This document shows positions 17,219 to 38,376 of a stretch of DNA of 39,945 bases, piece by piece. Position numbers and translations under genes: made by a program. The stretch is from Propionibacteriales bacterium (GTDB lineage Bacteria > Actinomycetota > Actinomycetes > Propionibacteriales > Nocardioidaceae), in NCBI GenBank assembly GCA_009379735.1, contig WHTB01000004.1, positions 1 through 39,945 of the forward strand, in the 5' to 3' direction. Below the pieces are notes generated by a model, which saw nothing but the letters and a program-made list of their open reading frames with translations, had not been told where the DNA came from and did no database searches. Position 1 is the first letter of the stretch, and each line of letters opens with the position of its first letter.

Positions 17219-18739
17219 TCAGATGTCGCGGAACGTCTCGATCTGCGCGCCGAGGGCGTTGAGCCGCTCGGCCAGATCCTGGTAGCCACGGTTGATGACG
17301 TACACGCTGCGCAGCACCGACGTGCCCTTCGCGGCCAGCATCGCCAGCAGGATGACCACGGCCGGCCGTAGCGCCGGCGGGCACATGATCTCGGCGCCAC
17401 GCCATCGGGTCGGGCCCTCGACCATCACCCGGTGCGGGTCGAGCAGCTTCACCTGGGCGCCTAGCTTGGTCAGGTCGGTGAGGTAGATGGCGCGGTTGTC
17501 GTAGACCCAGTCGTGGATCAACGTCTGACCGGTGGCCGTCGCCGCGATCACGGCGAAGAACGGCAAGTTGTCGATGTTGAGACCCGGGAACGGCATCGGG
17601 TGAATCTTGTCGAGCGGCGCGTGCAGCTGCGACGGCTTCGTGGTGAGGTCGACCAGGCGGGTGTGGCCGTTCTGGGCGAAGTACTCGGCGCTGCGCTCGT
17701 AGAGGAAGCCCATCTCCTCCAGCAGCGCCAGCTCGATCTCGAGGAACTCGATCGGTGCCCGCCGGATGGTGATCTCGGACTGGGTCACGATCGCGGCGGC
17801 GAGCAGACTCATCGCCTCGATCGGGTCCTCGGACGGCGCGTAGTCGACGTCGACGTTGATCTCGGACCGGCCCCGTACTCGCAACGTGGTCGTGCCGATG
17901 CCCTCGACCCGGACGCCGAGCTTGTCCAGGAAGAAGCAGAGGTCTTGCACCATGTAGTTGCTGCTGGCGTTGCGGATGACGGTCACCCCGTCGTGCAGAG
18001 CCGCCGCCATCAGGGCGTTCTCGGTGACCGTGTCCCCGCGCTCGGTGAGGACGATCGGACGCTCCGGCGAGACGTTCTCGTCGACGTACGCGTGGTAGCT
18101 CCCCTCGGTCGCCTTGACCTCCAGCCCGAACGGCCGCAGCGCCGACATGTGCGGCTCGACCGTGCGGGTGCCGAGGTCGCAGCCTCCCGCGTACGGCAGC
18201 TCGAACCGGCTCTCCCGGTGCATCAGCGGCCCGAGGAACATGATGATGGAGCGGGTACGGCGGGCCGCCTCCTCGTCCATCCGGTCGAGGTCGAAGCGGT
18301 CGGGCGGGGTCAGCTCGAGGTCGTCACCCACCCACTCGGTCTTGACGCCGATGCTGGTGAGCACCTCGAGCAGTCGGTTGACCTCCTCGATCCGGGCGAC
18401 CTTGCGGAGCACGGTGCGGCCGCGGTTGAGCAGCGACGCGCAGAGCAGGGCGACGCCGGCGTTCTTCGAGCTCTTCACGTCGATCGCGCCGGACAACGTC
18501 GTGCCGCCGGCGACCCGCAGGTGGGTCGGGCCACCGCCGAGCGACACGATCTCCGAGTCGAGCGCGTCGCCGATCCGGGCCAGCATCTCCAGCGAGAGGT
18601 TCTGGTGGCCACGCTCGATCCGGTTGACCGCGCTCTGGCTGGTGCCGAGCTGCTCGGCCAGCTGGCTCTGCGTCCAGCCCCGGTGCTTGCGGGCGTCGCG
18701 GATCAGCTTGCCGATACGGCTCAAGTAGTCTTCGGTCAT
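17219..18739 (-). CDS. XRE-HTH/MurA-like (UDP-GlcNAc enolpyruvyltransferase family) fusion protein
   Basis: 506 residues: an XRE helix-turn-helix at about 8-62 (GWTQSQLAEQLGTSQSAVNR) followed by a full EPSP-synthase/MurA domain from about 70 to the end. The MurA part keeps the substrate Lys92 (SSKNAGVAL) and the active-site Cys187 in GGCDLGTR, so it could be catalytic; MurA alone is about 420 residues. The frame is open upstream, but the ATG at 18739 begins the HTH and follows an operator-bearing promoter. It may be a cell-wall-precursor sensor/repressor or a second MurA; the role is inference. Confidence 0.9.
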   Translation of the reverse strand: MTEDYLSRIGKLIRDARKHRGWTQSQLAEQLGTSQSAVNRIERGHQNLSLEMLARIGDALDSEIVSLGGGPTHLRVAGGTTLSGAIDVKSSKNAGVALLCASLLNRGRTVLRKVARIEEVNRLLEVLTSIGVKTEWVGDDLELTPPDRFDLDRMDEEAARRTRSIIMFLGPLMHRESRFELPYAGGCDLGTRTVEPHMSALRPFGLEVKATEGSYHAYVDENVSPERPIVLTERGDTVTENALMAAALHDGVTVIRNASSNYMVQDLCFFLDKLGVRVEGIGTTTLRVRGRSEINVDVDYAPSEDPIEAMSLLAAAIVTQSEITIRRAPIEFLEIELALLEEMGFLYERSAEYFAQNGHTRLVDLTTKPSQLHAPLDKIHPMPFPGLNIDNLPFFAVIAATATGQTLIHDWVYDNRAIYLTDLTKLGAQVKLLDPHRVMVEGPTRWRGAEIMCPPALRPAVVILLAMLAAKGTSVLRSVYVINRGYQDLAERLNALGAQIETFRDI

Positions 18740-18747
18740 GGGGGACC

Positions 18748-18776
18748 AAGTTATCTCAGATATGAGATAACGCAAG
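18748..18776 (-). promoter_or_regulatory. Promoter and inverted-repeat operator of the HTH/MurA gene
   Basis: The 37-bp gap holds TTATCTCA and TGAGATAA arms (18751-18770, four-base centre), 12 bases before the HTH/MurA ATG. On the minus strand TTGCGT and TAACTT (18753-18748) are spaced 16 apart and fit a promoter whose spacer is the palindrome, with transcription starting at or next to the ATG. Autorepression by the gene's own HTH domain is the simplest reading. Confidence 0.7.
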
Positions 18777-19886
18777 TCAGGCGCGCCGGGGAGCTCCCAG
18801 ATAGGAGATCTCGGCGTCGGCCGAGCCGTCGGTGAGGAAGCCCAGCAACCGGCGGGCCTCGTCGTCGACGGCGGCCTCCTCGTCCGCGGACAGCGGGAGT
18901 ACGGCATGGAGCCGCATCGTCGACCGGCCGCCGGCCCGGTCGAGCCGCCAGAAGCCGGCGAGGAACCCGTCGACGAGGACGCTGCCGCGAGGCGGGAACT
19001 CCGGGTCGGCCGGCCACTGCGCCAACGTCTCCGGGATCACCCGGCTGCGGTCGGCATGGGAGAGGACCAGGTTGTCGTACTCCGGGAGCAGTCGCACCGG
19101 GGCAGGCGTGTCGGGGTCGGGCCGCGGTGCGTCGGGCAGGTCGAACAGCTCGCGGCCCTGCTCGTCGGTGAAGCAGACCAGCTGCGGCCGCAGTCGCTCG
19201 AACACCTCGGCCATCGCCGGCAGTCGTGACCAGGTCGCGGCGTCGGCGGGCGAGGCTGGGCCGAACGCGGCGAGGTAGCGCAGCATCAGGCCGTCCGGTG
19301 ACGCGTCGGTCCCGGCCGGCCGCCCCAGCCAGGACTCGTACGTCGTGCTGGCGGCTCGGGACGACTTCCGCCACATACCGCGCGGCGTGACCTGCACCAT
19401 CGGCAGCCAGTACTGCGCTGCCCAGCGAAGGGCCAGCCCGTCAATGTCAGGCCAGCGCTCCGACAGCAGCCGGCCGAGCTCCGCCGGTGTGCGCGGCTTC
19501 TCCTCGACCAGCTGACGCGTCACCGCCATTACCTGGTCGCGGTCGACGCCGTCGAGGAAGCGGCGGAACTGCGTCTGCGTGATGCCGTCGAGAACGCCCT
19601 GGATGACCGGTCTGATCGTCACCGCGTCGGACGCGCTCACCAGATGCAGCGTGCCGCGCATCACCGTGGTGCGGACGAGCCGGCGTTGCTCGAGCAGGGT
19701 CGACAGGGACTCGGGGTCGAACGCCTCCAGCCGCGACCACAGCGCGGTGTAGGGGTCGGTCGGCACCTGTGCCTGCAGTCCGACCAGCTGCTCGACTGCC
19801 TCCAGGACGGGCCGGTCGTGTCGCTCGAGCAGCAGCTGGCGAGCCAGGGTCGCGCGGCTCAGCGCACGCGTGCTCAGCGTCTCCAC
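18777..19886 (-). CDS. AlkZ-like winged-helix DNA glycosylase (HTH_42 family)
   Basis: 369-residue protein of the family first annotated as winged helix DNA-binding domain (PF06224). Seen: the N-terminal motif QLVGLQAQVPTDPYTALWSRL. Gln38-Ala-Gln40 matches the QxQ catalytic motif of AlkZ (azinomycin self-resistance glycosylase of Streptomyces) in type and position; YcaQ-type members carry QxD. RTTVMRGTLHLV and the C-terminal LPEYDNLVLSHADR and VLVDGFLAGFWRL are also family-typical. The known role is unhooking alkylated or cross-linked bases. It starts nine bases after the DUF1116 stop, so it could ride on that operon. Confidence 0.85.
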   Translation of the reverse strand: METLSTRALSRATLARQLLLERHDRPVLEAVEQLVGLQAQVPTDPYTALWSRLEAFDPESLSTLLEQRRLVRTTVMRGTLHLVSASDAVTIRPVIQGVLDGITQTQFRRFLDGVDRDQVMAVTRQLVEEKPRTPAELGRLLSERWPDIDGLALRWAAQYWLPMVQVTPRGMWRKSSRAASTTYESWLGRPAGTDASPDGLMLRYLAAFGPASPADAATWSRLPAMAEVFERLRPQLVCFTDEQGRELFDLPDAPRPDPDTPAPVRLLPEYDNLVLSHADRSRVIPETLAQWPADPEFPPRGSVLVDGFLAGFWRLDRAGGRSTMRLHAVLPLSADEEAAVDDEARRLLGFLTDGSADAEISYLGAPRRA

Positions 19887-19895
19887 GTGCTCACG

Positions 19896-21308
19896 CTAGT
19901 CGTCGTCACCGACGGCCGCGGCCAGCGCCGCGATCGCGCCGGTGAAGCACTCCATCGGCGGCTGGACGAGCCCCGCTCCGACCTGCCCCGTGCCGGCGAC
20001 GGCCCCGGCCATCCCGGTGTTGATCTGCGGGAGGATGCCGGTACGGAGGACGCGGGTGACGTCGATGCCCGTGGGCGCACCGCGGAACTCCAGGATCGGC
20101 ACCGCGTACGCGGGGTTCTCGCCGAGCGTGATCTCGTACATCAGCCGACTGGTGCGCAGGGCGTCGGGCACGCTGCCGCCCACGAACCGGACGATCGCGG
20201 GCGCGGCCGCCATCACGAACCCGCCGAGCCCCATCGTCTCGGTGATCGCGGAGTCGCCGATGTCGGGGTTCGCGTCGTCCGGTCCGTAGCCGCCGAGGAA
20301 CAGCCCTTCTGGCACCTGGGCCGGCCCGGTGAACCACTGGTCGCCGGTGCCCGACACCTGGATCCCGAAGTCGGTGCCGTTCCGGGCCATCGTCGTCACG
20401 ACCGTGCTCCCCGGCAGGCCGGCCGCCGCCGCTGTCTGCAGCTTGCCGGCCGGCATCACCAGGTTGAGGAAGAAGTGGTCGTTGCCGGAGACGAACCGGA
20501 CGGCCTCGGCCACCTCGCGGCTCGGCGACCCGCTCTCGATCAGGTCGGGCAACAGCTCGCGAAGCAGCAGCAGCGTCCCGGCCCGGTTGCGGTTGTGCCC
20601 CTCGTCGCCCATCTGCACCATCTGCGCGACGATGCCCTTGACGTCGATCGGCCCGTGTCGTCGCACGGCGACCTGCAGCAGCGGCCCGAGCACGTCGGTC
20701 ATCCAGCGCAGCCGGTCGATGACCTCGGCCGAGTACGCGCCGTACCGCAACACCTTGCCGAGACCCTCGTTGAGGGAGCACCAGGCGGTGCCGCCGTTGA
20801 CCTCGTCGCGTAGCTCGAACATCCACATCGACGGCGACACGACACCGGCCATCGGGCCGACTGCCCCACGCCGATGGCACGGCTCGAGGCCGATGCCGTC
20901 GCCGGCGACGAGCCGTGCCTCGGCCTCCTCCGCCGTCGAGGCGAGCCCCTCGAACAGCAGCGCGCCGACCAGCGCCCCACGCATCGGACCCGACGCGCGC
21001 TCCCAGGTGATCGGCGGCCCGGCGTGCAGGAACTGGCCGCGCTGCAGCCCGAGGACCTCGGCGGCCGGGCGTACGTCGACCAGCTCGGCCGTAGACCGCA
21101 GCATCCGCTCGAGCGCGGTCCGGTTCGAGGCGGCCCGGCGCGGATCACCCATCACCACGGCGAGGTCGGCCTCCGTACCCGCGACCGGTGGGCGCCAGTC
21201 GACCTGGGTGGTGGGTACGGCCTGGGCCGCGAGCGCGTCGGCGAACAGCTCGACGCCGGCCGTCACGACCCGCGGCTCCTCGCTGAGCAGGGGAGAGGTC
21301 GAGGTCAT
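19896..21308 (-). CDS. DUF1116 protein (YlbE/AllG-like oxamate carbamoyltransferase subunit)
   Basis: 470 residues matching DUF1116 along its length: VVMGDPRRAASNRTALERML, an EPCHRRGAVGPMAGVVSPSM centre, GDEGHNRNRAGT and FVSGNDHFFLNL. In E. coli the DUF1116 protein YlbE (AllG), with FdrA (AllF) and YlbF/DUF2877 (AllH), makes up oxamate carbamoyltransferase, which converts oxalurate and phosphate to oxamate and carbamoyl phosphate. All three families are adjacent here in the order DUF2877-fdrA-DUF1116. The frame is open upstream; the ATG at 21308 overlaps the fdrA stop (ATGA). The substrate may differ from oxalurate given the barbiturase-like gene in the same locus. Confidence 0.9.
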   Translation of the reverse strand: MTSTSPLLSEEPRVVTAGVELFADALAAQAVPTTQVDWRPPVAGTEADLAVVMGDPRRAASNRTALERMLRSTAELVDVRPAAEVLGLQRGQFLHAGPPITWERASGPMRGALVGALLFEGLASTAEEAEARLVAGDGIGLEPCHRRGAVGPMAGVVSPSMWMFELRDEVNGGTAWCSLNEGLGKVLRYGAYSAEVIDRLRWMTDVLGPLLQVAVRRHGPIDVKGIVAQMVQMGDEGHNRNRAGTLLLLRELLPDLIESGSPSREVAEAVRFVSGNDHFFLNLVMPAGKLQTAAAAGLPGSTVVTTMARNGTDFGIQVSGTGDQWFTGPAQVPEGLFLGGYGPDDANPDIGDSAITETMGLGGFVMAAAPAIVRFVGGSVPDALRTSRLMYEITLGENPAYAVPILEFRGAPTGIDVTRVLRTGILPQINTGMAGAVAGTGQVGAGLVQPPMECFTGAIAALAAAVGDDD

Positions 21309-22792
21309 CGTGGCGCTCCCACCAGCTCGACGGTCTTGCGGGTGGCGGCCGCGTTGGACAGGTGGACGGACGCACCCGCGTCGCGGATGGACGCGGCCTG
21401 CCGGTCGACGCCTTGCGGGTCGTCGGCGGTGCCGACCAGCGCCACGACGACTGCGACGTCGCGGCCGTCCTCGGCCGCCCGTCCACGAGCAGCGGTGATG
21501 GCTGGCGCCAGCTCGGCAGCCGGGTCGGGGTGGGCGCCGTGCCCGAGTACGACGTCGAGCAGCAGCACACCGCAGTCCGGGTCGGCGGCCTCGGCGAGCA
21601 TCCGCTCGGACCGCAGGGCGCCGTCGATCATCGGGTGCGGACGGCCCCGTGTCAGCCGGTCGTCGCCGAAGTCGATCATCAGGTGGCCGGGTGCGCGCAG
21701 GTCGTCGGGGAGCGCCCAGTCCGGCCGGAGCGGGATGTTGGAGCGGACCTCGCCGAGCGCATCCGCGACGATCAGCATCGCCTCGTCGCACAGCGTGCCG
21801 CCGGCGAACAACCCACGGACGGACCGATAGGTGCCGGTCCGCTCCTGCGGCGCCGGCCACCAGCGCGGCTCCTGCCAGGTCGCTCCGGCGGCGGTCGCGA
21901 TCTCCTTGGTGGCTGCGGTGAGGTCGGGTTGGCCGGGGCCGAGCAGCGCGAACAGCACGGGTTTGCCGAGCCGGTCGGCGTGCGCGCGGACGACCTCGGC
22001 GACCTCGGGCGCCGGCGGCTTGCTGATGACCGCGATCAGCTCGGTCGCGTCGTCGGCGGCCAGCAGGTCGAGGGCCGCCAGCGTCGACCGACCGCGCACC
22101 TGGCTCGACAGGTCACGGCCGCCGACACCGAGGCAGTGGCTGACGCCGACCCCGGCCCCGTCGAGCAGGCTCATCACCTGCTGGGCTCCGGTGCCCGAGG
22201 CCGCGACCAGACCGACCGGTCCCGGACGTACGACGTTGGCGAAGCCCAGACTCACCCCACCGACGGCCGCCGTCCCGCAGTCCGGGCCCATCACCAGCAG
22301 GCCGCGCCGGGCCGCCTCGTCCTTGAGCCGGACCTCGTGCTCGACCGACACGTTGTCGGAGAACACCACCACGGACAGGCCGGACTCCAGCGCGTCCATC
22401 GCGTCGGCGAACGCGTACGCGCCGGGCGTGGAGACGAAAGCCAGGGTCGCGTCTGAGCCCGCCGCCGCCGAGCCGATCGTGCGCGGCGCGGGTGCGTCAC
22501 CGAACCCGGCCGCCGACGGCGCGGATCTCTCGGTCAGCGCGGTCTCGAGCCGGGCCAGGGCGCCGGCCACGGCAGCGTCGTCCGCGGCGTCGACGGCGAC
22601 CAGCAGGTCGGCCGGCCCGGCGTCGTCGGGTGGGTCGAATCCCATGCCTGCAAGGAGATCGACGTTGAGGTCCGTCGCCATCGCGACGAGCGCAGCGGTC
22701 ACGCCGGGCTCACCGGCGACGCTGCGGCTCACCTGCATCAGGGTGACGGAGTCGTGGTAGGCGCCAGCCCGCAGCTCGACGTGCCGGGTCAC
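21305..22792 (-). CDS. fdrA: FdrA-family protein (AllF-like carbamoyltransferase subunit)
   Basis: 495 residues, acyl-CoA synthetase-like fold. Seen: N-terminal YHDSVTLMQVSRSVAGEPGV typical of FdrA, a Rossmann-like CoA-binding-type domain with LLVMGPDCGTA around Cys172, GLVAASGTGAQQV, and a C-terminal ligase-like domain (LLLDVVLGHGAHPDPA). The GTG at 22792 gives the conserved start and overlaps the DUF2877 stop by four bases (GTGA). In E. coli this subunit belongs to oxamate carbamoyltransferase. CoA use is not known and is not implied by the fold alone. Confidence 0.9.
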   Translation of the reverse strand: MTRHVELRAGAYHDSVTLMQVSRSVAGEPGVTAALVAMATDLNVDLLAGMGFDPPDDAGPADLLVAVDAADDAAVAGALARLETALTERSAPSAAGFGDAPAPRTIGSAAAGSDATLAFVSTPGAYAFADAMDALESGLSVVVFSDNVSVEHEVRLKDEAARRGLLVMGPDCGTAAVGGVSLGFANVVRPGPVGLVAASGTGAQQVMSLLDGAGVGVSHCLGVGGRDLSSQVRGRSTLAALDLLAADDATELIAVISKPPAPEVAEVVRAHADRLGKPVLFALLGPGQPDLTAATKEIATAAGATWQEPRWWPAPQERTGTYRSVRGLFAGGTLCDEAMLIVADALGEVRSNIPLRPDWALPDDLRAPGHLMIDFGDDRLTRGRPHPMIDGALRSERMLAEAADPDCGVLLLDVVLGHGAHPDPAAELAPAITAARGRAAEDGRDVAVVVALVGTADDPQGVDRQAASIRDAGASVHLSNAAATRKTVELVGAPR

Positions 22793-23604
22793 GGGGACGC
22801 CTCGCGGTCGGTGCGGGTCGCGGCCAGCCCGTAGTGGACGCCGAGCAGCAGCGCCCACCCGGAGGTGTGGCCGACGGCGAGCAGGTCGGCGCGCACCGCC
22901 TCGAGGTCGTCGGTGCCGCGGTCCAGCGCCCGCAGGTACGCCGCGACCGGCGGGATGCACTCGCCCCGGGCGGCGTGGACCAGCAACGCGGCCGACACCG
23001 TCGTCGTACGCGCGAACGGCCGGGCCGCGTCGACCGCCGCGGCGAGACGTCCGGCGGCTGGGTGCGCCGCTGCGGACAGCGCGACCAAGGCGCCGGCGAG
23101 TACGTCGTCGCCGGCCGGAGTGAGACCCGGCCCGAGCCCCAGCAACCGCGGTACGCGAGTGGGCAGATCCGCCGTCCCGGCGTCGGTGACGTCGGGCGGG
23201 ACATCTGGCGGGGGTGCCGGGACCGGGCGGGACGCGGCCCGGGCCGCGGCGGCACGCGGATCGGTCAGCACCGGTCGCGGGACGCGCCACCAGCGCGCCA
23301 CTGCGACGACCTCGCCCCCTACGCGGACGCGCCCGCGGCCGACCGCCGCGGGTGCGCCGACCTCGGCCCGCGGCGGAGGGGTCGTGAGCACGAGTGCACA
23401 CGGCAGTCGTACGGCGTCCGGGCCCGAAACACAGACCACGTCGGGGTCCTGCGCCGCGGACTCGACGGCGACGACGACCGCGTGCCGCGTCGCCGCCACC
23501 ACCCGGCCGGTCCACCGTGGACCGAGCAGCAGTGCCTCGACCGCAGTACTGGCCGCCGCAGGCAGGACGCCGCTCGCCCGGGCCGGTTCCGCAGCGCATT
23601 CCAC
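22789..23604 (-). CDS. DUF2877 protein (YlbF/AllH-like carbamoyltransferase subunit)
   Basis: 271 residues, the usual DUF2877 length, with the signature GLGPGLTPAGDD at about residues 156-167 and a C-terminal segment VGHTSGWALLLGVHYGL. First gene of the carbamoyltransferase operon, divergent from pucR with 35 bases between. The middle (residues 120-150) is Pro/Ala-rich. Assignment to the AllFGH-type complex rests on the strict adjacency of all three families. Confidence 0.88.
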   Translation of the reverse strand: MECAAEPARASGVLPAAASTAVEALLLGPRWTGRVVAATRHAVVVAVESAAQDPDVVCVSGPDAVRLPCALVLTTPPPRAEVGAPAAVGRGRVRVGGEVVAVARWWRVPRPVLTDPRAAAARAASRPVPAPPPDVPPDVTDAGTADLPTRVPRLLGLGPGLTPAGDDVLAGALVALSAAAHPAAGRLAAAVDAARPFARTTTVSAALLVHAARGECIPPVAAYLRALDRGTDDLEAVRADLLAVGHTSGWALLLGVHYGLAATRTDREASP

Positions 23605-23626: not shown

Positions 23627-23640
23627 TAGCGTCATCCGCA
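23627..23640 (+). promoter_or_regulatory. Possible leaderless promoter of pucR
   Basis: TAGCGT at 23627-23632 lies seven bases before the first ATG (23640), the spacing of a leaderless actinobacterial start. No convincing -35 is seen. The 35-bp gap to the divergent DUF2877 gene leaves room for only one shared control region. Confidence 0.3.
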
Positions 23641-25367
23641 TGGGGAATGTTGCCAACGATCCACCCCGGACTTCGCCGGACTTGCCAGCACCCTCGTCGA
23701 CGACCGGTCCGCAGCAGTGGCCGGCCCGGGCGATGCCGGGTCTCACCGTGCGCGATGCGTTGACCGTCCCCGCGCTGACCGGCGCACGGGTGCTGGCCGG
23801 CGCGGAGGGTCTCGACCGCGTCGTGCACCGCGGCAACATCATGGAGGTCCCCGACATCCTGCCGTGGGTGAAGCCCCACGAGCTGCTGCTCACCACCGGC
23901 TACCCCCTGCGCAACACCCCGTACGGGCTGCCGGAGCTGGTCACCGAGCTCGACGCCCGGCAGCTGTCGGCACTCGGGGTCAAGCTGCACCGCTACATCG
24001 ACGAGCTCCCGGCGGCGATGCTCGCGGAGGCCGACCAGGTCGGCCTGCCGCTGCTCCTGCTCCCTGATGCGATCGGCTTCGACGACATCCTCAACCAGGT
24101 GCTGACCCGGGTGCTCAACCGGCAGGCGGCCGCGCTCGAACGTACCTGGGCCGTGCACGACGTACTCCTCTCGGTGGTGCTCGAGGGCGGTGGGCTGGAC
24201 GAGCTGGCCAGTGAGACGGCGCGGGTGCTGGGCACGCCGGTGCTGGTGACGACCGCAGACGGGCGGCCGCTGGCCGAGGGCGGTGATGCCGCGGAGCTGG
24301 GGGAGTGGCGGACGACCTCGTGTTTCGACGCGTCGGGCCGGTTCCGCACTGAGCACGAGCGGCGGGGCGTACGGGCCGATGACGGCGTGCCGGGTCAGCG
24401 GGCCGTGGTGTCGATCGTCGCCGGTCGGGTCGACCACGGCCGGCTCGTCGCATTCAGCCGAGACCGCGTCCTCGACGACGGCGACGTCAACGTGCTCGAG
24501 CGGGCGGCGACGGTGGCCGCGCTCGTGGTGACCAAGCAGCTCGCCGTCACGGCGGTGGAGGGTAAGTACCGCGGTGACTTCCTGCGCGATGTGCTGGCCG
24601 GGCGAGCCGGCGGCCGTGACCGGGTGGTCGCGCACTGCGTCTCCCTCGGCTGGGATATCGACCGGCCGCTGGTGGTCGTCGTTGCCGAGCTCGACCCGGA
24701 GGCGGACCCGCCGCTACGCCCAGAGCTGGAGCTGCGGCCGGCCCAGGAGCGGTTCGCGGCCGGCTGGCAGACGGCGGTGCGGCGCCGCGACCCGCAGGCG
24801 GCGGTCGTCGGGTTCACCCAGGAGGTGGTGGCGCTGCTCGGTGTTCCGGTGGGCGGCGACCCGGACGCCGCCGTCCGCGAGGTCGTGCGCCAGGTCGCGG
24901 GTGACGGCGGGGGCGGGCGGCGCTCGTTCTCGACCGGCGTCAGCCGGGTCGTCACGTCGGCCGACGCGCTGCCGGAGGCGTACGACCAGGCGGTCAAGGC
25001 GGTGCAGGTCGGTCGCCGAACCAACGGCCCTGGGTCGGTGGCGCACTTCGACGGCCTCGGGTCTTTCCGGCTGCTCAGCCAGATCACCGACGCGGAGGAG
25101 CTGCGGCGGTTCGTCCGCGAGACGCTCGGCGAGCTGGCCGCCGAGGACGACGCCGAGGTCGCGGACCTGCGGCACACCCTGCAGGTGCTGCTGGACACCA
25201 ACCTGAACGTGGCGGTGGCAGCCCGCGAGCTGCACTTCCACTACAACACGCTGCGCTACCGGATCGGCAAGCTGGAGCGGGTCGTCGGTCCGTTCACCAC
25301 CGACCCGGACGTCCGGCTCGACCTGGCGCTCGCGTTGAAGGTGCTGCAGATGCGCGGGCTGCCCTGA
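23640..25367 (+). CDS. pucR: PucR-family transcriptional regulator of purine/pyrimidine catabolism
   Basis: 575 residues. Seen: PucR N-terminal domain from about residue 32 (MPGLTVRDALTVPALTGARVL, GNIMEVPDILPWVKPHELLLTTGY), a central GGDEF-like/CdaR domain, and the C-terminal HTH_30 (LLDTNLNVAVAARELHFHYN). The ATG at 23640 is the first; 23733 (MPGLTV) would match the usual PucR start and drop a low-complexity leader. PucR proteins are activators or repressors responding to N-heterocycle metabolites such as allantoin. Position between the two catabolic arms points to control of both. Confidence 0.9.
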   Translation: MGNVANDPPRTSPDLPAPSSTTGPQQWPARAMPGLTVRDALTVPALTGARVLAGAEGLDRVVHRGNIMEVPDILPWVKPHELLLTTGYPLRNTPYGLPELVTELDARQLSALGVKLHRYIDELPAAMLAEADQVGLPLLLLPDAIGFDDILNQVLTRVLNRQAAALERTWAVHDVLLSVVLEGGGLDELASETARVLGTPVLVTTADGRPLAEGGDAAELGEWRTTSCFDASGRFRTEHERRGVRADDGVPGQRAVVSIVAGRVDHGRLVAFSRDRVLDDGDVNVLERAATVAALVVTKQLAVTAVEGKYRGDFLRDVLAGRAGGRDRVVAHCVSLGWDIDRPLVVVVAELDPEADPPLRPELELRPAQERFAAGWQTAVRRRDPQAAVVGFTQEVVALLGVPVGGDPDAAVREVVRQVAGDGGGGRRSFSTGVSRVVTSADALPEAYDQAVKAVQVGRRTNGPGSVAHFDGLGSFRLLSQITDAEELRRFVRETLGELAAEDDAEVADLRHTLQVLLDTNLNVAVAARELHFHYNTLRYRIGKLERVVGPFTTDPDVRLDLALALKVLQMRGLP

Positions 25368-26501: not shown

Positions 26502-26632
26502 GTGGTCGGGGGCGGCACAGAGATTGCCGAGAGACGGGCGGTTCGCTCGGCAGATAGTGCCCATGCCGGGCCCACGCCGTGATGTCATGGTTGCGATCAT
26601 CGCGTTCCCACCGTTGCGGGGAGGACACCGAA

Positions 26633-28048
26633 ATGGCTGCTGGCTGGAAGGTCGTCTACGGGGGCAAGACACCGCCGCCGGGCGAGGTCGTACGCCCGGA
26701 CGAACGGCTGTCGTGGACACGCACGGCGGGGCTGGGAGCCCAGCACGTCGTGGCGATGTTCGGTGCGACGTTCGTCTTCCCGCTGGTGATGGGCCTCAAC
26801 GCCCAGCTGGCGATCATGATGAGCGGCATCGCCACGATCTGCTTCCTGCTGATCGTGTCGGGCAAGGTGCCGAGCTACCTGGGCACCAGCGCGTCCTTCG
26901 TCGGAGGTGTGGCGGCCATCCGGGCCCAGGGAGGGGACTCCTCCGACGTCACCGGCGCGATCTTCGTCGCCGGTGCGGTGCTGGTCCTGGCCGGTGTGCT
27001 GATCCACTTCCTCGGGTCGGCCGTGCTGCACAAGGTGCTGCCACCGGTCGTGACCGGCGCCGTCGTCATGCTGATCGGCTTCAACCTCGCTCCGGTGGTC
27101 GCGGACATCTACTGGCCACAGGACCAGTGGATCGCGCTGATCGTGATGACCGCGGTGATCTTGATGGCGGTCGGGCTGCGCGGGTTCTTCGGCCGGATCG
27201 CGATCTTCCTCGGACTGATCTTCGGGTACGTGCTGTCCTGGGTGTTCGACCAGGTCTTCGGCCAGATCACGTCCTTCGACGCCGCCGCGGGCGAGGTGAC
27301 GACCCACTTCCGGGTCAACTTCGACAACCTCAAGGCGGCCGACTGGTTCGGCTTCCCCGCCGAGACCGTGCTCAGCGCGGACGGCGCCGAGGTCGCCGGC
27401 TGGCACCTGCCGAGCTTCGACGTCGTGTTCGTCCTGCTGGTGCTGCCGGCCGTGATCGCGCTGATCGCCGAGAACACCGGTCACGTCAAGGCGGTCGCCG
27501 GGATGACCGAGACCGACCTCGACCCGGTGATGGGCCGCGCCATCGCCGCCGACGGTGTGGGCACGATGATCGCCACGTCGGTCGGCGGCTCGCCGACCAC
27601 AACGTACGCCGAGAACATCGGTGTCATGGCGGCCACCCGGGTCTACTCAACGGCCGCCTACTACGTCGCGGCGGCCGTCGCGATCGTGTTCGGCCTGTCG
27701 CCGAAGTTCGGCGCACTCGTGTCCGCCGTCCCCGGCGGAGTGCTCGGCGGGATCACGGTCGTGCTGTACGGCATGATCGGGCTGCTCGGCGCGAAGATCT
27801 GGAACGAGAACCGGGTCGACTTCGCCAACCCGGTCAACCTCGTACCCGTCGCCGCCGGCATCATCATCGCGATCGGCGACACGTCGATGGAGATCACCGA
27901 TGACTTCGTGCTCTCCGGCATCGCCCTCGGCACCATCGTGACCGTGGTGGCGTACCACCTGGCGCACGCCGTCGCGCCGCCCCATCTGAAGGAGGGGGCG
28001 ATGTTGTCCATCGGCGGGAAGGGCACGCACCGCGTGGAGGACGCGTGA
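26633..28048 (+). CDS. NCS2-family uracil/xanthine permease, UraA/RutG-like
   Basis: 471-residue, 14-helix nucleobase:H+ symporter. The NAT signature reads AENIGVMAATRVYS, and the segment ahead of it, TTTYAENIG, closely follows E. coli UraA (TTYGENIGVMAITRVYS). AENTGHVKAV in TM8 carries the first substrate Glu and AENIG in TM10 the second. These UraA-type residues favour uracil or a related pyrimidine over xanthine. GGGGAGG precedes the ATG at 26633. First gene of the tight plus-strand operon; its stop overlaps the next GTG. Confidence 0.92.
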   Translation: MAAGWKVVYGGKTPPPGEVVRPDERLSWTRTAGLGAQHVVAMFGATFVFPLVMGLNAQLAIMMSGIATICFLLIVSGKVPSYLGTSASFVGGVAAIRAQGGDSSDVTGAIFVAGAVLVLAGVLIHFLGSAVLHKVLPPVVTGAVVMLIGFNLAPVVADIYWPQDQWIALIVMTAVILMAVGLRGFFGRIAIFLGLIFGYVLSWVFDQVFGQITSFDAAAGEVTTHFRVNFDNLKAADWFGFPAETVLSADGAEVAGWHLPSFDVVFVLLVLPAVIALIAENTGHVKAVAGMTETDLDPVMGRAIAADGVGTMIATSVGGSPTTTYAENIGVMAATRVYSTAAYYVAAAVAIVFGLSPKFGALVSAVPGGVLGGITVVLYGMIGLLGAKIWNENRVDFANPVNLVPVAAGIIIAIGDTSMEITDDFVLSGIALGTIVTVVAYHLAHAVAPPHLKEGAMLSIGGKGTHRVEDA

Positions 28049-28910
28049 AGCCTGCGCCGTTCGCGTACCACCGGCCGGACAGCGTCGACGAGGCGCTGCA
28101 GGTGCTGGCGGAGCTCGGCGCGGACGGCAAGGTGCTCGCCGGCGGCCAGAGCCTGGTGCCGCTGCTCAACATGCGGCTCGCCGCGCCGACCGCGCTGGTC
28201 GACATCAACCGGCTCGACCAGCTCGCGTACGTCCGCATCGAGGAGTCCGGGGTACGGGTGGGCGCAACCGCGCGCCATGCCGACGTCGAGCGCGACGAGG
28301 CGACGTACGACGCGCTGCCGTTGCTCCGGCAGGCACTCACCCATGTCGCCCACCCGACGATCCGCAACAGGGGCACGACGGTCGGCAGCCTGGTGCACGC
28401 CGACCCGTCGGGGGAGATGACCGCGGTGCTGGCGCTGCTCGGCGGGTCGGTCGAGATCCGCACCGCGGCGGCGACGCGCACCGTCGCGGCCGCCGACTTC
28501 TTCCTGGGACCGTTGGAGTCCGCCGTCGGTGCCGGAGAGCTGGCGGCCTCGGCCCACTTCCCGCTGCCGGAGGGGAACGCAGGCACGGCGTGGGTCGAGG
28601 TCGCCCGGCGGCACGGTGACTACGCGATCTGCGGCGTCGGCGCGCTGGTCACCCTCGACGACGACCTGCGGGTCGCGGCGGCCCGGGCGGCGTACATCTC
28701 GGTCGACGCGACCCCGGTTGTGCGCGACCTCACCGACGCCGTTGCGGGCCAGCCGCACGACGCCGCCGACTGGGCCGCGGCGGGCGCCTTGGCCGCGGGC
28801 GAGCTCGACCCGGAGGCCGACATCCACGCCACCGCCGCCTACCGGCGACATCTCGCGGCCGTCCTCACCGCCCGGGCGCAGCGGGCCGCCGCCACTCACG
28901 CGGAGCAGCG

Positions 28911-28914
<4 letters not shown>
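28045..28914 (+). CDS. Molybdenum hydroxylase, FAD subunit (CoxM/XdhB type)
   Basis: 289-residue FAD-binding subunit of a three-part Mo hydroxylase. Seen: KVLAGGQSLVPLLNMRLAAP and RNRGTTVGSLVHADPSGE for FAD pyrophosphate and flavin contacts, plus the C-terminal CO-dehydrogenase flavoprotein domain. The order FAD-FeS-Mo and overlaps of four bases (GTGA, ATGA) with the permease and FeS genes show one translational unit. Electrons would pass from Mo through the FeS centres to FAD. Confidence 0.93.
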
Positions 28915-29428
<514 letters not shown>

Positions 29429-29432
<4 letters not shown>

Positions 29433-31810
29433 GTACCCGCATCTTCGGCGAGCCGATCCCACGGCGCGAGGACCCGCGGCTGCTGTCCGGCCAGGGCCGC
29501 TATCTCGACGACCTGGGACACGGCGCGCTGGCGGCGGCGTTCGTCCGCAGCCCGCACGCCCACGCCCGGATCGTCGACATCGACGTCTCCGACGCACTCG
29601 AGGTCGAGGGCCTGGTCGCCATCTACACCCACGAGGACCTGCCGGGCCAGGTCGGCCATCCGCTGCCGCTGCTGATCCCGCACCCGACCCTGACCCAGGC
29701 ACGCACGCCGTACCCCTTGGCCAAGGACGAGGTCAACCACGTCGGCGAGGCGATCGTGATGGTGGTCGCCACTGACCGCTACCTGGCCGAGGATGCCTGC
29801 CAGCGGATCCGGGTCGACTACGACTTCCTCCCGCCGGTCGTCGGCATCGAGCAGTCTCGTGCCGCCGACCTGCTCGTCCACGACGACGTGCCCGACAACG
29901 TCTCCGCGCACATGCTTCAGGAGGTCGGCGACGCACCGGCCGCGATCGACGCCGCGCCGCACCGACTGCACCTCGACCTGGACATCGAGCGCAGCGCGTC
30001 GATGCCGATGGAGGGCAAGGGGGTATACGCCCGCTGGGATGCCGACGACCGGAGCCTGCGGGTCTACACCTCCACCCAGGCCTCGACGTCGGTGCGCGCA
30101 GCGATCGCCGCGCGGCTCGGGTTGCCGCTGGACCGGGTCGAGGTCGTCGCGCCTGACGTCGGCGGCGGCTTCGGCGTCAAGATCATGCACCCGTGGCCGG
30201 AGGAGGTGTTGGTGCCGTGGGCGTCGATCACCCTCGGCCGTGAGGTCACCTGGGCCGAGGACCGTCGCGAGCACTTCGTCTCCAGTGCGCACGAGCGCGC
30301 GCAGCAGCACCAGGTCGACGTCGGCTTCGACGACGACGGCCGGTTGCTCGGCCTCGACGTGACGTTCTGGCACGACAACGGCGCCTACACGCCGTACGGG
30401 ATCATCGTCCCGATCGTCACCTCGACCCAGCTGCTCGGGCCGTACAAGCCCGGCGCCTACCGGGTCGAGTTCTTCAGCCTCTACACCAACACCGTGCTCG
30501 TGACGCCCTACCGCGGGGCCGGCCGGCCGCAGGGCTGCTTCGTGATGGAGCGCACGATGGACGCGATCGCGGCCTACCTCGGCCTCGACCGCACCACGGT
30601 GCGCGAGCGCAACTTCATCCAGCCCGAGGAGATGCCGTACGACCACGGCCTGGTGTTCCAGGACGGCCGGCCGCTGGTCTACGACTCCGGTGACTACCCG
30701 GCAACGCTGGAGAAGCTGAAGAAGCTGGTCGGGTGGGACGAGTTCGAGGTCTTCCGCGAGCAGGCGCGAGCCGACGGCCGGCGGGTCGGGATCGGCATCG
30801 GGTGTTACGTCGAGGGCACCGGCCCCGGCCCGTACGAAGGCGGCTTCGTGAAGGTGGAGACCGACGGCACGGTGATCGTGGCGACCGGTCTGACCTCGCA
30901 GGGGCAAGGCCACCAGACCGCGTTCGCCCAGGTCGTGGCCGAGGAGCTGGGGGTGCCGGTCGACAAGGTCGTGGTGACGACCGGCGACACCCGGCGGTTC
31001 AAGTACGCCGTCGGCACGTTCGCCTCGCGGGCGGCGGTGATGAGTGGCAACGCCGTGGCGCTGGCCACCCGCAAGGTGCGGGAGAAGGCGCTGCGGATCG
31101 CCGGCGACGCACTCGAGGCAGACCCGGCCGACCTCGAGATCGTCGACGGTGTCGTCCAGGTCAAGGGCACGCCGGGTGCGACTATCCCGCTGTCCACGGT
31201 GGCCGTGCTGTCCAACCCGCTGCGGTACGCGTTCGACGAGGAGACCAAGCGGGCCACCCAGTTCGCGGCGCCCGCGGACGTCGACAAGCCACCGATCGAG
31301 GAGGGTGGGGAGCCGGGGCTGGAGGCGACCGCCTACTACTCGCCGCCCCGCTCGACCTTCGCCAACGGCATGCACGCAGCGATCGTGGAGACCGACCCGG
31401 AGACGGCCGAGATCAAGATCCTGCGCTACTGCGTCGTGCACGACTGCGGCACGCTGATCAACCCGCGGATCGTCGAGGGCCAGATCCACGGTGGGGTCGC
31501 GCAGGGCGTCGGCGGTGCGTTGTACGAGCGGATGGTGTACGACGAGTCGGGGCAGCTGCTGAACGCGTCGTACATGGACTTCCTGATGCCGTACGCCACC
31601 GAGGTGCCGAACATCGAGATCGACCATCTGGAGACACCGTCGCCGCTCAACCCGCTCGGGCTCAAGGGCGCGGGCGAGGCCGGCGTGATCCCGGGCTCGG
31701 CGGTGCTGTCGTCGGCGATCGAGGACGCCGAGGGCATCCGCATCACCCGGATGCCGATCTCGCCGTCCGAGCTCTACCACCTGCGGCAGAAGGAGAGCAC
31801 CACGCGATGA
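29429..31810 (+). CDS. Molybdenum hydroxylase, large Mo-cofactor subunit (CoxL/XdhA type; candidate uracil dehydrogenase)
   Basis: 793 residues. Seen: IPRREDPRLLSGQGRYLDD start, VGGGFGVK cofactor loop, PYRGAGRP instead of the AYRCSFR loop of true CO dehydrogenase, and the catalytic Glu750 in KGAGEAGV. It is therefore a hydroxylase of aldehydes or N-heterocycles, not CO oxidation. Uracil/thymine dehydrogenase of the oxidative pyrimidine route is described as a molybdenum flavoenzyme, and its neighbours here (UraA-like permease, barbiturase-family gene) fit that job. Xanthine or another heterocycle is possible. The frame is open upstream; the ATG at 29429 overlaps the FeS-subunit stop. Confidence 0.92.
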
Positions 31811-32424
31811 AGGTCCAGGGTTCCGCCGTCCTGCACGCCGCTCGCGAGGACGTCTGGCGGGCGCTCAACGACCCGGCCGTGCTGGTGCGGACGATCCCAG
31901 GGTGTGAGCAGCTGGTCGAGATCGGGACCGACCGCTACCGGATGACGGTGCAGGCCGGTGTCGCGTCGGTCAAGGGCACGTTCGCCGGCGAGGTGCGGCT
32001 GCACGACCAGCAGCGGCCGGGCTCGTTCGTGTTGACTGCGACCGGTGCGGGCGCACCGGGCACGGTGCACGCCGACGTGACGGTTAGTCTCACCGAGGAC
32101 GGCGACGCCACCAGGCTCGATTATGCCGCCGACGCGATCGTGGGCGGCATGATCGGCGGGGTCGGCCAGCGGATGCTCAGCAGCGCCACCAAGAAGACCG
32201 CCAACGAGTTCTTCGGCGCGGTGGAGGACGTGCTGACCGGCAAGGCGCCCGCCGTCGCGCCGACCGCCGGTGTCGAGCCGAGCGCGGCCGGTGTTTACGA
32301 GGCGCCGCAGCGCGCGGTCCCCGCACGGTCTGGCGACTTCGGGCGCGGCGTCGCCGTCGGTGCCGGGATCGCCCTGCTCGGCGCCCTGGTCGGCGGCTGG
32401 GTGTCCGGCCGGCGCCGGTCCTAG
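31807..32424 (+). CDS. CoxG-like SRPBCC protein with C-terminal membrane anchor
   Basis: 205 residues. A SRPBCC/CoxG domain (VQGSAVLHAAREDVWRALND, MTVQAGVASVKGTFAGEV, GMIGGVGQRMLSSATKK) is followed by a Pro/Ala linker and one C-terminal hydrophobic helix (VAVGAGIALLGALVGGWVSG). In carboxydotrophs CoxG helps anchor CO dehydrogenase to the membrane, so here it may tether the Mo hydroxylase. ATGA overlap with the large subunit. Confidence 0.9.
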   Translation: MKVQGSAVLHAAREDVWRALNDPAVLVRTIPGCEQLVEIGTDRYRMTVQAGVASVKGTFAGEVRLHDQQRPGSFVLTATGAGAPGTVHADVTVSLTEDGDATRLDYAADAIVGGMIGGVGQRMLSSATKKTANEFFGAVEDVLTGKAPAVAPTAGVEPSAAGVYEAPQRAVPARSGDFGRGVAVGAGIALLGALVGGWVSGRRRS

Positions 32425-32442: not shown

Positions 32443-33345
32443 ATGCGCGCATTCACTGCAGCCGCGGTCCAAGTCCAGCCACGGTCCGAGCCGCTGAGCC
32501 CGGAGACCATCAAGGCCAACAGCGAGCACGCCGCCGACTACGTCGAGCGGTGCGTGGCGGACACCGGGGCCGAGCTGGTCGTACTCCCCGAGTCGGTGAC
32601 CACCGGCTTCACCCCGGGTTGCTCGCCGGAGGAGGTGTGGGACTTGGTCAGCGAGATCCCGGGGCCGATCACCGAGCCGCTACAAGACGTCGCCCGACGG
32701 CTCGGCGTGCACCTCGTCTGGGGCACCTACGAGCGCGGCCCGGAGCGAGGCACGGTGTTCAACTCGGCGGTGCTGGCCGGACCGGACGGCGCGATCGCCG
32801 GCGTCTACCGCAAGACCCACCCGTTCTACACCGAGCTCGCCCACCGCGGCTGGGTGACGCCCGGCAACGAGGTCTGCGTCGTCGAGACCGACCTCGGCAC
32901 GATCGGGATCATCATCTGCTTCGACGGCGACTACCCGGAGCTGTCGCGGATCAATGCCGTACGCGGAGCCGAGGTCATCGTGCGCCCGTCGGCGCTGCTG
33001 CGGTCCGCGGACATCTGGGAGCTCACCAACCGGGCCCGGGCCTACGACAACCATGTGTACGTCGTCGGGTCGAACTGCGTCGGCATCGACCCGGCCGGGG
33101 TCCTGTACTTCGGCAACTCGATGATCGTCACCCCGATCGCCGACGTCGTCGCTCGGGGGGCCAGCCACGAGTGCTGGGTGTCCGCCCGGCTCGACCCCGA
33201 GCAGGCGCTGCGCTCGCTCACGCCGGGGTCGAGCGTCGGGCAGGGCTTCGATCACCTGGCCGACCGCAACCTCGACCTGATCCGCCGCTACGCCGACGAC
33301 CTGACCCGCCCGGCGCAGTCGTCGTTCCCGCGCCTCCACCCTTAG
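32443..33345 (+). CDS. Carbon-nitrogen hydrolase (nitrilase superfamily amidase)
   Basis: 300 residues with the complete catalytic triad of the family: Glu50 (LPESVTTGF), Lys124 (YRKTHPFY) and Cys159 (IIICFDGDYPE). The family hydrolyses amides, nitriles and N-carbamoyl compounds, including beta-ureidopropionase. In this locus it could release ammonia from malonamate or cleave a ureido acid; neither can be told from sequence. GGAGGAACACTG precedes the ATG, 18 bases after coxG. Confidence 0.92.
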   Translation: MRAFTAAAVQVQPRSEPLSPETIKANSEHAADYVERCVADTGAELVVLPESVTTGFTPGCSPEEVWDLVSEIPGPITEPLQDVARRLGVHLVWGTYERGPERGTVFNSAVLAGPDGAIAGVYRKTHPFYTELAHRGWVTPGNEVCVVETDLGTIGIIICFDGDYPELSRINAVRGAEVIVRPSALLRSADIWELTNRARAYDNHVYVVGSNCVGIDPAGVLYFGNSMIVTPIADVVARGASHECWVSARLDPEQALRSLTPGSSVGQGFDHLADRNLDLIRRYADDLTRPAQSSFPRLHP

Positions 33346-33372: not shown

Positions 33373-35460
33373 ATGTCCCAGGTCCGGATCGGCATCGACA
33401 CCGGTGGCACGTTCACCGACGTCGTCGCGGTCGACGAGCAGACCGGCGAGCTGGTCACGACGAAGACGCCGTCGACGCCTGCCGACCCGGCCGACGGGTT
33501 CATGGCCGGGATCCACAAGGTGCTGGGCACGCTCGGCCTCGGCGGCGACGCCGTGACGGCGGTGAGCCACGGCACGACCGTCGCCACCAACAAGCTGCTC
33601 GAGGGCAAGGTCGAGAACCTCGGCTTCGTCACCACCGAGGGCTACCGCCACCTGCTGGAGATCGCCCGTCAGTCCGTCCCGGACGGCTACGGCAACAGCT
33701 ACTTCTGGGTGAAGCCGCCCCGCATCGTGCCGGCCGACCGGGTACGCACGGTCGGCGGGCGGCTGGCCGTCGACGGCAGTGAGATCCGTCCGTTCTCCGT
33801 CGGCGACGCGGTCGCGGCCGCCCGGTTCTTCCGCGAGCACGACATCTCCACGATCGGCGTGTGCTTCATCCATGCGTACGCCAACCCCGAGCACGAGCTA
33901 CTGATGCGTGAGGTGCTCATCGACGAGCATCCCGAGGCGACGGTGTCGATCTCGTCGGAGGTGCTCAGGGAGTACCGGGAGTACGAGCGGAGCGTCACGA
34001 CCCTTGTCGACGCGGCGGTGAAGCCCAACATCCGTCGCTACGTCGAGAACATCCAGCGTCGGCTGCAGGGGTTCACCGCCGCCGGCTCGGCCGAACGCGC
34101 CGTCCCGTTCTACGTGATGAAGTCCAACGGCGGCGTGCTGTCAGCCGACGAGGTCGTGCACCAGCCCATCAGCACCGTGCTCTCGGGTCCCGCCGCCGGG
34201 GCGCTCGGTGCGGCCGTGGTCGCCGAGGCGGCCGGCTTCCCGAGTGTGCTGACCTGCGACGGTGGCGGCACGTCGACCGACGTGACCGTGGTGGTCGACG
34301 GCCACCCGGCCCTCACCACGGAGGGCAGCGTCGGTGCGTACCCGAGCAAGATCCCGATGATCGACGTCGTCACGGTCGGTGCGGGCGGCGGCTCGATCGC
34401 CTGGGTCAGCCCGGAGGGCACGCTCAAGGTCGGGCCGCAGTCGGCCGGCGCCGACCCAGGCCCGCTCTGCTACCGCAACGGGGGGACGGAGCCGACCATC
34501 ACCGACGCGCACCTGCTGCTCGGCCGGATCCCGCCGCACCTGCTCGGAGGCGAGGTCCCGCTGGACCTGGCGGCGGCGACCGACGGCATCACCGCCTTGG
34601 CCGGCCGGCTCGGCTTCGACTCGCAGCAGTGTGCGGCCGGCATCCTGGAGATCTCCGCCTGGAACCAGGCCAACGCGCTCCGGCAGGTCACGGTCAAGCG
34701 TGGCCTCGACGTCCGCGACTTCCGGCTGGTGACGTTCGGCGGGTCGGGGTCGCTGCTGGCCTGCCGGCTGGTCGACATCCTCGGCCTCGGCGGCGTGCTG
34801 GTGCCACCGAACCCGGGCAACCTCTCGGCGTACGGCCTGCTCACCGTCGACGTCCGCAACGACTACGTCCGGACCGCGGTGTCGCGACACTCCATGCTCG
34901 ATCTGCACGCGGTCGAGAAGATCCTCGGCGATCTCCGGGCCGAGGCCGACCGCGCGCTCGCGCGGGAAGGGTTCGCCGAGTCGGCCCGCCGGTTCGTCCG
35001 CACCGCCGACCTGCGCTACTTCGGGCAGGCGTACGAGGTCCGCGTCGACGTACCCGACGGGGCGATGACCGCGGAGCTGGCTGAAGTGGTCGCCGACGCG
35101 TTCCACGCCGAGCACCGCAGCCTCTACGGCTATGACTTCCGCGGCGACGGCCGGCAGGAGGTGGAGTGGGTCAACCTTCGGGTCACCGGGGTCGGCCCGA
35201 TCCGCAAGCCGGGCGTGCGTGAGGTGTCGCCGGGCCAGGGCGCCGAGCAGGCGCGGACCGGCACCCGGCGGGTGCGGTTCGACGAATGGGCGGAGACCCC
35301 GATCTACGACCGGGCGCGGCTGGGCGCCGGCGACGCGCTGGACGGGCCGGCCGTCCTGGAGGAGTTCGGAGCCACGGTGCCCGTCCACCCGGGCTTCCGG
35401 GCCGAGGTCGACCGGTTCGGCAACCTGCTGCTGACGCGACACCGGGAGGTGGTGTCGTGA
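33373..35460 (+). CDS. hyuA: Hydantoinase/oxoprolinase subunit A (ATP-dependent)
   Basis: 695 residues, normal for HyuA. Seen: the actin-like ATPase phosphate motif GIDTGGTFTDVV at residues 7-18, SHGTTVATNKLLEGK, CDGGGTSTDVTVV and VTVGAGGGSIAWV, and the C-terminal HyuA domain. With HyuB it forms ATP-dependent cyclic-amide hydrolases (N-methylhydantoinase, 5-oxoprolinase, caprolactamase) or related carboxylases. Start with TAGGAGGAGA before ATG. Overlaps hyuB by GTGA. Confidence 0.95.
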   Translation: MSQVRIGIDTGGTFTDVVAVDEQTGELVTTKTPSTPADPADGFMAGIHKVLGTLGLGGDAVTAVSHGTTVATNKLLEGKVENLGFVTTEGYRHLLEIARQSVPDGYGNSYFWVKPPRIVPADRVRTVGGRLAVDGSEIRPFSVGDAVAAARFFREHDISTIGVCFIHAYANPEHELLMREVLIDEHPEATVSISSEVLREYREYERSVTTLVDAAVKPNIRRYVENIQRRLQGFTAAGSAERAVPFYVMKSNGGVLSADEVVHQPISTVLSGPAAGALGAAVVAEAAGFPSVLTCDGGGTSTDVTVVVDGHPALTTEGSVGAYPSKIPMIDVVTVGAGGGSIAWVSPEGTLKVGPQSAGADPGPLCYRNGGTEPTITDAHLLLGRIPPHLLGGEVPLDLAAATDGITALAGRLGFDSQQCAAGILEISAWNQANALRQVTVKRGLDVRDFRLVTFGGSGSLLACRLVDILGLGGVLVPPNPGNLSAYGLLTVDVRNDYVRTAVSRHSMLDLHAVEKILGDLRAEADRALAREGFAESARRFVRTADLRYFGQAYEVRVDVPDGAMTAELAEVVADAFHAEHRSLYGYDFRGDGRQEVEWVNLRVTGVGPIRKPGVREVSPGQGAEQARTGTRRVRFDEWAETPIYDRARLGAGDALDGPAVLEEFGATVPVHPGFRAEVDRFGNLLLTRHREVVS

Positions 35461-37371: not shown

Positions 37372-38376
37372 ATGCGCGTACTGATCGCGCTGGGCGGTAA
37401 CGCGATGACGGCGCCGGACGGTCGGGCCCGGCCGGAGGACCAGATCGCCGCGGTCACGGCGGCCATGCAGCCGGTGGCTGACCTCGTCACCGCGGGCGTC
37501 GAGGTGGTGCTGACGCACGGCAACGGCCCGCAGGTCGGCAACCTGCTGGTGAAGAACGAGCTGGCGGCCGCGGTCGTCCCGCCGGTCCCGCTGGACTGGT
37601 GCGTCGCGCAGACCCAGGGCACGATCGGGCTGATCTTGATCGATGCGCTCGAGTACGCCCTGGCCGCGCGCGGCACCGCCCGGCAGGTCGCGACCCTGGT
37701 CACGCGGACCCGGGTCAGCGCCGACGACCCCGCGATGCTCCGCCCGACGAAGCCGATCGGCCGTTACCTGCCGCACGACGAGGCACTGCCCCTGATCGAG
37801 CACGGGCAGGTGTGGGAGGACCGCGGCAAGCGGGGCTGGAGGCGCGTGGTGGCGAGCCCCGAGCCGCTGGAGATCCTCGACGCCGCCGCGGTGTGCGCCC
37901 TCGTCGACGCGGGCCTGGTGGTGGTCGCGAACGGCGGTGGCGGCATCCCGGTCGTCCGAGAGGCCGACGGCAGTCTGCGCGGCGTCGAGGCGGTGATCGA
38001 CAAGGACCTCGGTGCCGCCGTACTCGCTCAGGCCGTCGGCGCGGAGATCCTCGTGATCGCTACTGACGTCCCGCAGGCGATGCTCGGCTACGACACCCCG
38101 GAGGCCCGGCCGGTCGGCCAGGTCGACGTCGCCACCATGCGCCGGTACGCCGAGGACGGCCACTTCGGCAGCGGAAGCATGGGCCCGAAGGTCGAGGCGG
38201 CCTGCCGGTTCGTCGAGGCCGGTGGCCACCGTGCCGTCATCACGTCCGTCAACCAGATCGCCGCGGCGGTCGACGACGCGATCGGCACCACGGTCGTGCC
38301 GACGCCCGCAGCCCCGAGCAGTCACGACCACGACATCCACGACGCCAACAGAGAGGTGGGGCCGACGCATGCCTGA
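37372..38376 (+). CDS. arcC: Carbamate kinase
   Basis: 334-residue amino-acid-kinase-fold enzyme making ATP from carbamoyl phosphate and ADP. Seen: [58 protein letters not shown] and [13 protein letters not shown], all characteristic. A C-terminal extension of about 25 residues ([15 protein letters not shown]) is unusual. It has no arginine-deiminase or ornithine-carbamoyltransferase neighbours; the only carbamoyl-phosphate source in the locus is the FdrA/DUF1116/DUF2877 set. GGAGGGGAGTAGCCG precedes the ATG. Overlaps the amidohydrolase start by eight bases. Confidence 0.95.

Follow-up and report, generated by a model that had tools for sequence, protein, structure and literature searches.

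A set of AllF, AllG and AllH homologues encoded in a 39,945-base stretch of DNA from a Propionibacteriales bacterium has probably shifted from oxalurate to ureidomalonate, to judge from genome comparison, and would thus act as the carbamoyltransferase of an oxidative uracil pathway. The stretch (hereafter the window) is one entire contig (C80) of a draft genome, with 70.7% G+C, and carries the three overlapping genes on the minus strand at 19896–23604. In E. coli, the counterparts AllFGH (FdrA-YlbE-YlbF) constitute the oxalurate/oxamate carbamoyltransferase (oxamic transcarbamylase), partnered by the carbamate kinase AllK (PMC11326118). We also think it likely that a phosphorolytic, ATP-conserving branch of pyrimidine breakdown is widespread in actinobacteria, in which AllFGH, as a ureidomalonate phosphorylase (malonamate carbamoyltransferase), supplants a urea-forming ureidomalonase and AllG has changed specificity at two positions.

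Results

An AllFGH set linked to barbiturase

The window encodes all three subunit families side by side. The AllG homologue (DUF1116, 470 amino acids, 19896–21308, ATG at 21308) matches PF06545 (E 5e-95), the AllH homologue (DUF2877, 271 amino acids, 22789–23604) matches PF11392 (E 3e-24), and the succinyl-CoA synthetase alpha-like AllF/FdrA homologue between them (495 amino acids, 21305–22792) matches Ligase_CoA, PF00549 (E 2e-31), and FdrA of PDB 3dmy (E 3e-68), scoring 409 bits against the NCBIfam model 'FdrA', slightly below its cut-off of 433. These matches bear out the original prediction, an earlier reading of the window, which had named the genes as an FdrA/DUF1116/DUF2877 trio. Core residues of E. 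coli AllF and AllG are invariant across all clades, the window proteins included.

Which genes does AllG accompany? Among 396 genomes sampled from the phylum, AllG was found in 49 and an AtzD/TrzD-family protein in 27, with both in 22. AllG was present in all 22 genomes whose AtzD-family protein carries the five-residue barbiturase (Bar-type) signature, in none of the 5 in which every AtzD-family protein is of another type, and in 27 of the 369 lacking the family. AllG and barbiturase lay on one contig within 45 kb in 17 of the 22 genomes and on different contigs of draft assemblies in the remaining 5. Only 2 of the 396 genomes had a protein above the cut-off of the curated AllD model, each with AllD about 4 kb from AllG and without barbiturase. 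Because the AllD genomes have AllG nearby but no barbiturase, AllG shows two separate associations, one with AllD and one with barbiturase.

A second sample comprised the best 80 loci obtained when about 85,000 species genomes were screened with a barbiturase alignment; it is biased toward close relatives of the window barbiturase, and neighbouring species in it are not independent. Carbamate kinase adjoins barbiturase, within about 160 nucleotides, in 73 of these 80 loci. AllG was found in 44 of the 49 barbiturase genomes searched from this sample, on the same contig in 38 and at a distance of 8–41 kb in 37 of those 38. The AllG-negative genomes were those of Rhodococcus erythropolis, another Rhodococcus, Rhodococcoides fascians, Haloechinothrix halophila and Catenulispora rubra, and no full-length AllF match was found in any of the five. 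Two gene arrangements recur: in that of the window, AllFGH is divergent from a run of PucR, permease and hydroxylase genes, whereas other families (for example, locus L011) have a one-strand run of barbiturase-permease-kinase-AllH-AllF-AllG-hydroxylase. The association is kept in both arrangements.

The ring opener is of the barbiturase type

Five positions distinguish barbiturase from cyanuric acid hydrolase (PMC3758960). The AtzD/TrzD-family protein of the window (38372–39475, plus strand; PF09663, E 8e-143) has Asn, His, Lys, Val and Ser at AtzD positions 195, 321, 325, 345 and 346, the barbiturase-type residue at all five. It matches the solved barbiturase structure PDB 5hwe (E 5e-200), and the R. 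erythropolis protein of locus L063 is 83% identical to it. By these sequence features the protein is a genuine member of the barbiturase branch; the specificity residues and the 5hwe match rule out a cyanuric acid hydrolase.

AllG of barbiturase genomes forms a separate clade

A tree of 72 AllG proteins, built by a quick method whose support values are approximate, placed the 36 copies from barbiturase genomes in one clade (SH-aLRT 97). The AllD-linked copies (E. coli and the two AllD genomes), the yah-type copies and other actinobacterial copies fell outside it, as did the extra AllG paralogues of barbiturase genomes. The window's genome has such a paralogue in a second AllFGH set (contig C374, L004:4126–14667). 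With its own carbamate kinase, a formamidase-like protein, an NCS1 permease and a cytosine-deaminase-like amidohydrolase, this set resembles E. coli yahEFGIJ.

Two residues, in two motifs otherwise conserved in AllG, mark the barbiturase clade: at position 109 Ala replaces Met (35 Ala and 1 Cys among the 36), and at position 439 Gly replaces His (36/36). These positions are numbered in a 474-residue frame starting at base 21320; counted from the ATG at 21308, they become 105 and 435. Met and His are retained in AllD-linked and yah-type AllG, in AllG linked to HyuAB operons that lack barbiturase, and in the solved protein 3clq; a few distant copies elsewhere in the tree likewise have Ala or Gly at one of the two sites. 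Less bulky residues at these sites would fit a substrate with one more CH2.

The purine route runs through allantoicase

Neither allantoinase nor ureidoglycolate dehydrogenase is encoded in the window, as the original prediction had stated. Allantoinase occurs only elsewhere in the genome (contig C443), together with uricase, allantoicase, a pucD-type xanthine dehydrogenase and an 8-oxoguanine deaminase, and this gene content indicates a route that yields ureidoglycolate via allantoicase. No AllD exceeded the curated cut-off in the genome; the best match scored 183 bits against the 496 required and adjoins a fumarylacetoacetate-hydrolase-type gene. A search of the genome for genes leading from allantoin to oxalurate thus returned allantoinase and no AllD, and the allantoin genes, which use allantoicase, are unlinked to the AllFGH set; the linked and co-regulated genes that the original prediction had named as counter-evidence were not encountered. 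For an assignment as the oxalurate enzyme (EC 2.1.3.5) we looked for AllD in the genome and for grouping of the window AllG with AllD-linked AllG, and found neither.

Rhodococcus has an amidase beside barbiturase and lacks AllF and AllG

Passages in PMC3758960 describe barbiturase as characterised in R. erythropolis (for the strain's identity, PMC3961730) and cite work of the same group (Soong et al.) in which ureidomalonase hydrolyses the barbiturase product to malonate and urea. In the R. erythropolis genome we found neither AllF nor AllG, and no carbamate kinase beside barbiturase. Ureidomalonase has reportedly been measured in R. erythropolis itself. Directly downstream of its barbiturase lies an amidase-signature amidase (L063:11230–12723), which is a candidate for the ureidomalonase gene on grounds of position and family. 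Such an amidase also lies in the same place at L070:11256–12710, in a genome without AllG. Haloechinothrix shares the arrangement.

In AllFGH species, the slot between the CoxG-like gene and HyuA held a CN-hydrolase in 6 of the 21 readable cases, an amidase in 10 and both in none; the slot amidase shares about 40% identity with that of Rhodococcus. The slot enzymes and the Rhodococcus amidase could all cleave a malonyl-nitrogen bond, that of malonamate and of ureidomalonate respectively. CoA-transferase and carboxyltransferase-like genes lie near barbiturase in both AllG-positive and AllG-negative types, which fits malonate as a common end product.

The distribution of urease was also compared. 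Urease-negative enterobacteria have AllFGHK, which urease-positive Klebsiella lack (PMC11326118). Among the barbiturase genomes, urease exceeded the cut-off in 10 of the 44 with AllG versus 4 of the 5 without it (Fisher p 0.02), and none did so in the window's genome.

Gene content of the cluster and proposed pathway

The remaining genes of the cluster, barbiturase among them, run on the plus strand, opposite to allHFG. A PucR-type regulator (23640–25367; PF07905, PF13556, PF17853; start uncertain, 23640 or 23733) is followed by a RutG-like NCS2 permease of the uracil/xanthine family (26579–28048; PF00860; TIGR03616 at 339 bits, under its cut-off). Next come three subunits of a xanthine-dehydrogenase-family hydroxylase: the FAD subunit (28045–28914), which from NCBIfam matches and cluster conservation belongs to a candidate uracil dehydrogenase, the 2Fe-2S subunit (28911–29432; NCBIfam matches) and the molybdopterin subunit (29429–31810; PF20256, PF02738). 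NCBIfam names the last an aerobic CO dehydrogenase large subunit (group 5); its PYRGAGR motif is present and the CSFR pattern searched for was unmatched. That label is likely a misannotation, the conserved neighbours pointing to a pyrimidine hydroxylase.

A small CoxG-like protein (31807–32424), conserved in position 3' of the hydroxylase and without an NCBIfam match, precedes a CN-hydrolase of the nitrilase superfamily (32443–33345; PF00795, E 2e-45), a candidate malonamate amidase. HyuA, of the ATP-dependent hydantoinase/oxoprolinase/caprolactamase family (33373–35460; PF01968, PF05378, PF19278), and its partner subunit HyuB (35457–37349; PF02538, E 4e-138) come next, and then a catabolic carbamate kinase of AllK/ArcC type (37372–38376; TIGR00746 (arcC) at 334 bits, NF009007 above cut-off). 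The kinase and the nitrilase-family amidase on which the original prediction had drawn are therefore both real.

In the pathway that we propose, the NCS2 permease would import uracil, and the hydroxylase, judging by gene family and linkage, would convert it to barbiturate, which barbiturase would open to ureidomalonate. AllFGH would then cleave ureidomalonate with phosphate, giving carbamoyl phosphate and malonamate; from the former and ADP, carbamate kinase would make ATP, CO2 and ammonia; and the CN-hydrolase, or an amidase-signature amidase in other species, would split malonamate into malonate and ammonia. Cleavage by phosphate would save one ATP in place of urea release, and species without AllFG would use a hydrolytic ureidomalonase and release urea. 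We infer every substrate in this scheme except barbiturate.

An AlphaFold2 model of AllH, computed from an alignment of the window and related-locus sequences with E. coli YahE left out, was confident (pLDDT 94) and matched no PDB fold at E ≤ 0.001, so that the fold gives no mechanistic clue; given such a model, AllH possibly has an unsolved fold. Elsewhere in the window, 17219–18907 encodes a Cro/C1 helix-turn-helix followed by a fused EPSP-synthase-family (MurA-like) domain.

Discussion

What is the substrate of the window complex? The identities of the genes and their linkage, the subtype of the barbiturase, the separateness of the AllG clade and the absence of AllD and urease were directly established, and every comparative test that we ran supports the original prediction of ureidomalonate rather than oxalurate. 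A standard purine-breakdown enzyme, an oxalurate/oxamate carbamoyltransferase lying near barbiturase genes by chance, would share its Pfam families and invariant core residues with E. coli AllFGH, as the window set does, and the genome does hold uricase and allantoinase. Yet it has no AllD above cut-off, its uricase-allantoinase-allantoicase contig is unlinked, the AllD-linked AllGs form a different clade, and AllG accompanies Bar-type barbiturase in 22 of 22 genomes, and we regard this explanation as very unlikely. Ureidomalonate is favoured because of the co-occurrence with barbiturase, the linkage in two arrangements, the adjacent carbamate kinase, the separate AllG clade and the absence of AllD, and also because AllF and AllG are missing where a hydrolytic ureidomalonase is reported.

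The cluster amidase might instead be the ureidomalonase, releasing malonate and urea, with AllFGH and carbamate kinase using a different ureide supplied by HyuAB or the hydroxylase. The conservation of HyuAB in the cluster and the Rhodococcus-like amidases in AllFGH-positive loci suit this idea, as do three operons (L035, L037, L038) of hydroxylase, HyuA, HyuB, AllF and AllG genes without barbiturase, in which HyuAB possibly opens a hydantoin-type ring to oxalurate. However, AllG of these operons lies outside the barbiturase clade and keeps Met and His, Rhodococcus lacks AllF and AllG despite HyuA and hydroxylase at its locus, and the window's genome and most AllG-positive genomes have no urease; we consider a different ureide unlikely. 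The uracil/thymine dehydrogenase of the oxidative pyrimidine pathway accepts thymine, and the small residues in AllG could make room for a larger substrate, so that the thymine-derived methylated analogue (ureido-methylmalonate) might be the main substrate, or both analogues might be used. The partner ring opener is of the type described as barbituric acid hydrolase, which argues against this reading; we consider it highly improbable.

Several observations weigh against ureidomalonate as the substrate of AllFGH. Genome context is no proof of a substrate, and the use of ureidomalonate and malonamate by AllFGH is what we infer from it. The changes at 109 and 439 are known at the level of sequence, and common ancestry could by itself account for them. 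Catenulispora rubra (L118) has barbiturase, carbamate kinase, CN-hydrolase and urease, but neither AllF nor AllG was found in its genome. A parallel hydrolytic route is possible, given the amidases of many AllG-positive loci. Five AllG-negative genomes from few lineages, three of them Rhodococcus-like, underlie the urease trend, and Haloechinothrix lacks both AllG and urease. Finally, HyuAB, highly conserved in barbiturase clusters (HyuA has a match in Rhodococcus too), has no place in the scheme.

If AllFGH does act on ureidomalonate, the barbiturate route of uracil breakdown would be completed at the gene level, the recently assigned AllFGH family would be broader than oxalurate, and the carbamate kinase beside barbiturase in dozens of species would be accounted for. 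The amidase next to the Rhodococcus barbiturase, for its part, is a pointer to a candidate ureidomalonase gene. A literature search that lacked most subscription journals returned no paper linking fdrA to barbiturase or naming malonamate together with carbamoyl phosphate.

How does the window cluster compare with known systems? Like the oxidative pyrimidine pathway of R. erythropolis, it combines a closely similar barbiturase with the same hydroxylase subunits, permease, PucR and HyuA; unlike the window, Rhodococcus lacks AllF and AllG, and its barbiturase adjoins an amidase instead of carbamate kinase. With E. coli AllFGH, the window set shares the subunit families, the adjacency of the subunit genes, a partner carbamate kinase and the core residues, but it is linked to barbiturase and hydroxylase genes rather than to AllC/AllD, and its AllG, of a separate clade, has Ala and Gly where E. 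coli has Met and His. The E. coli yahEFG-yahI-yahJ genes likewise share AllH-, AllF- and AllG-like genes and a carbamate kinase-like gene with the window set, and differ from it in having the amidohydrolase YahJ in place of barbiturase and an AllG of another clade.

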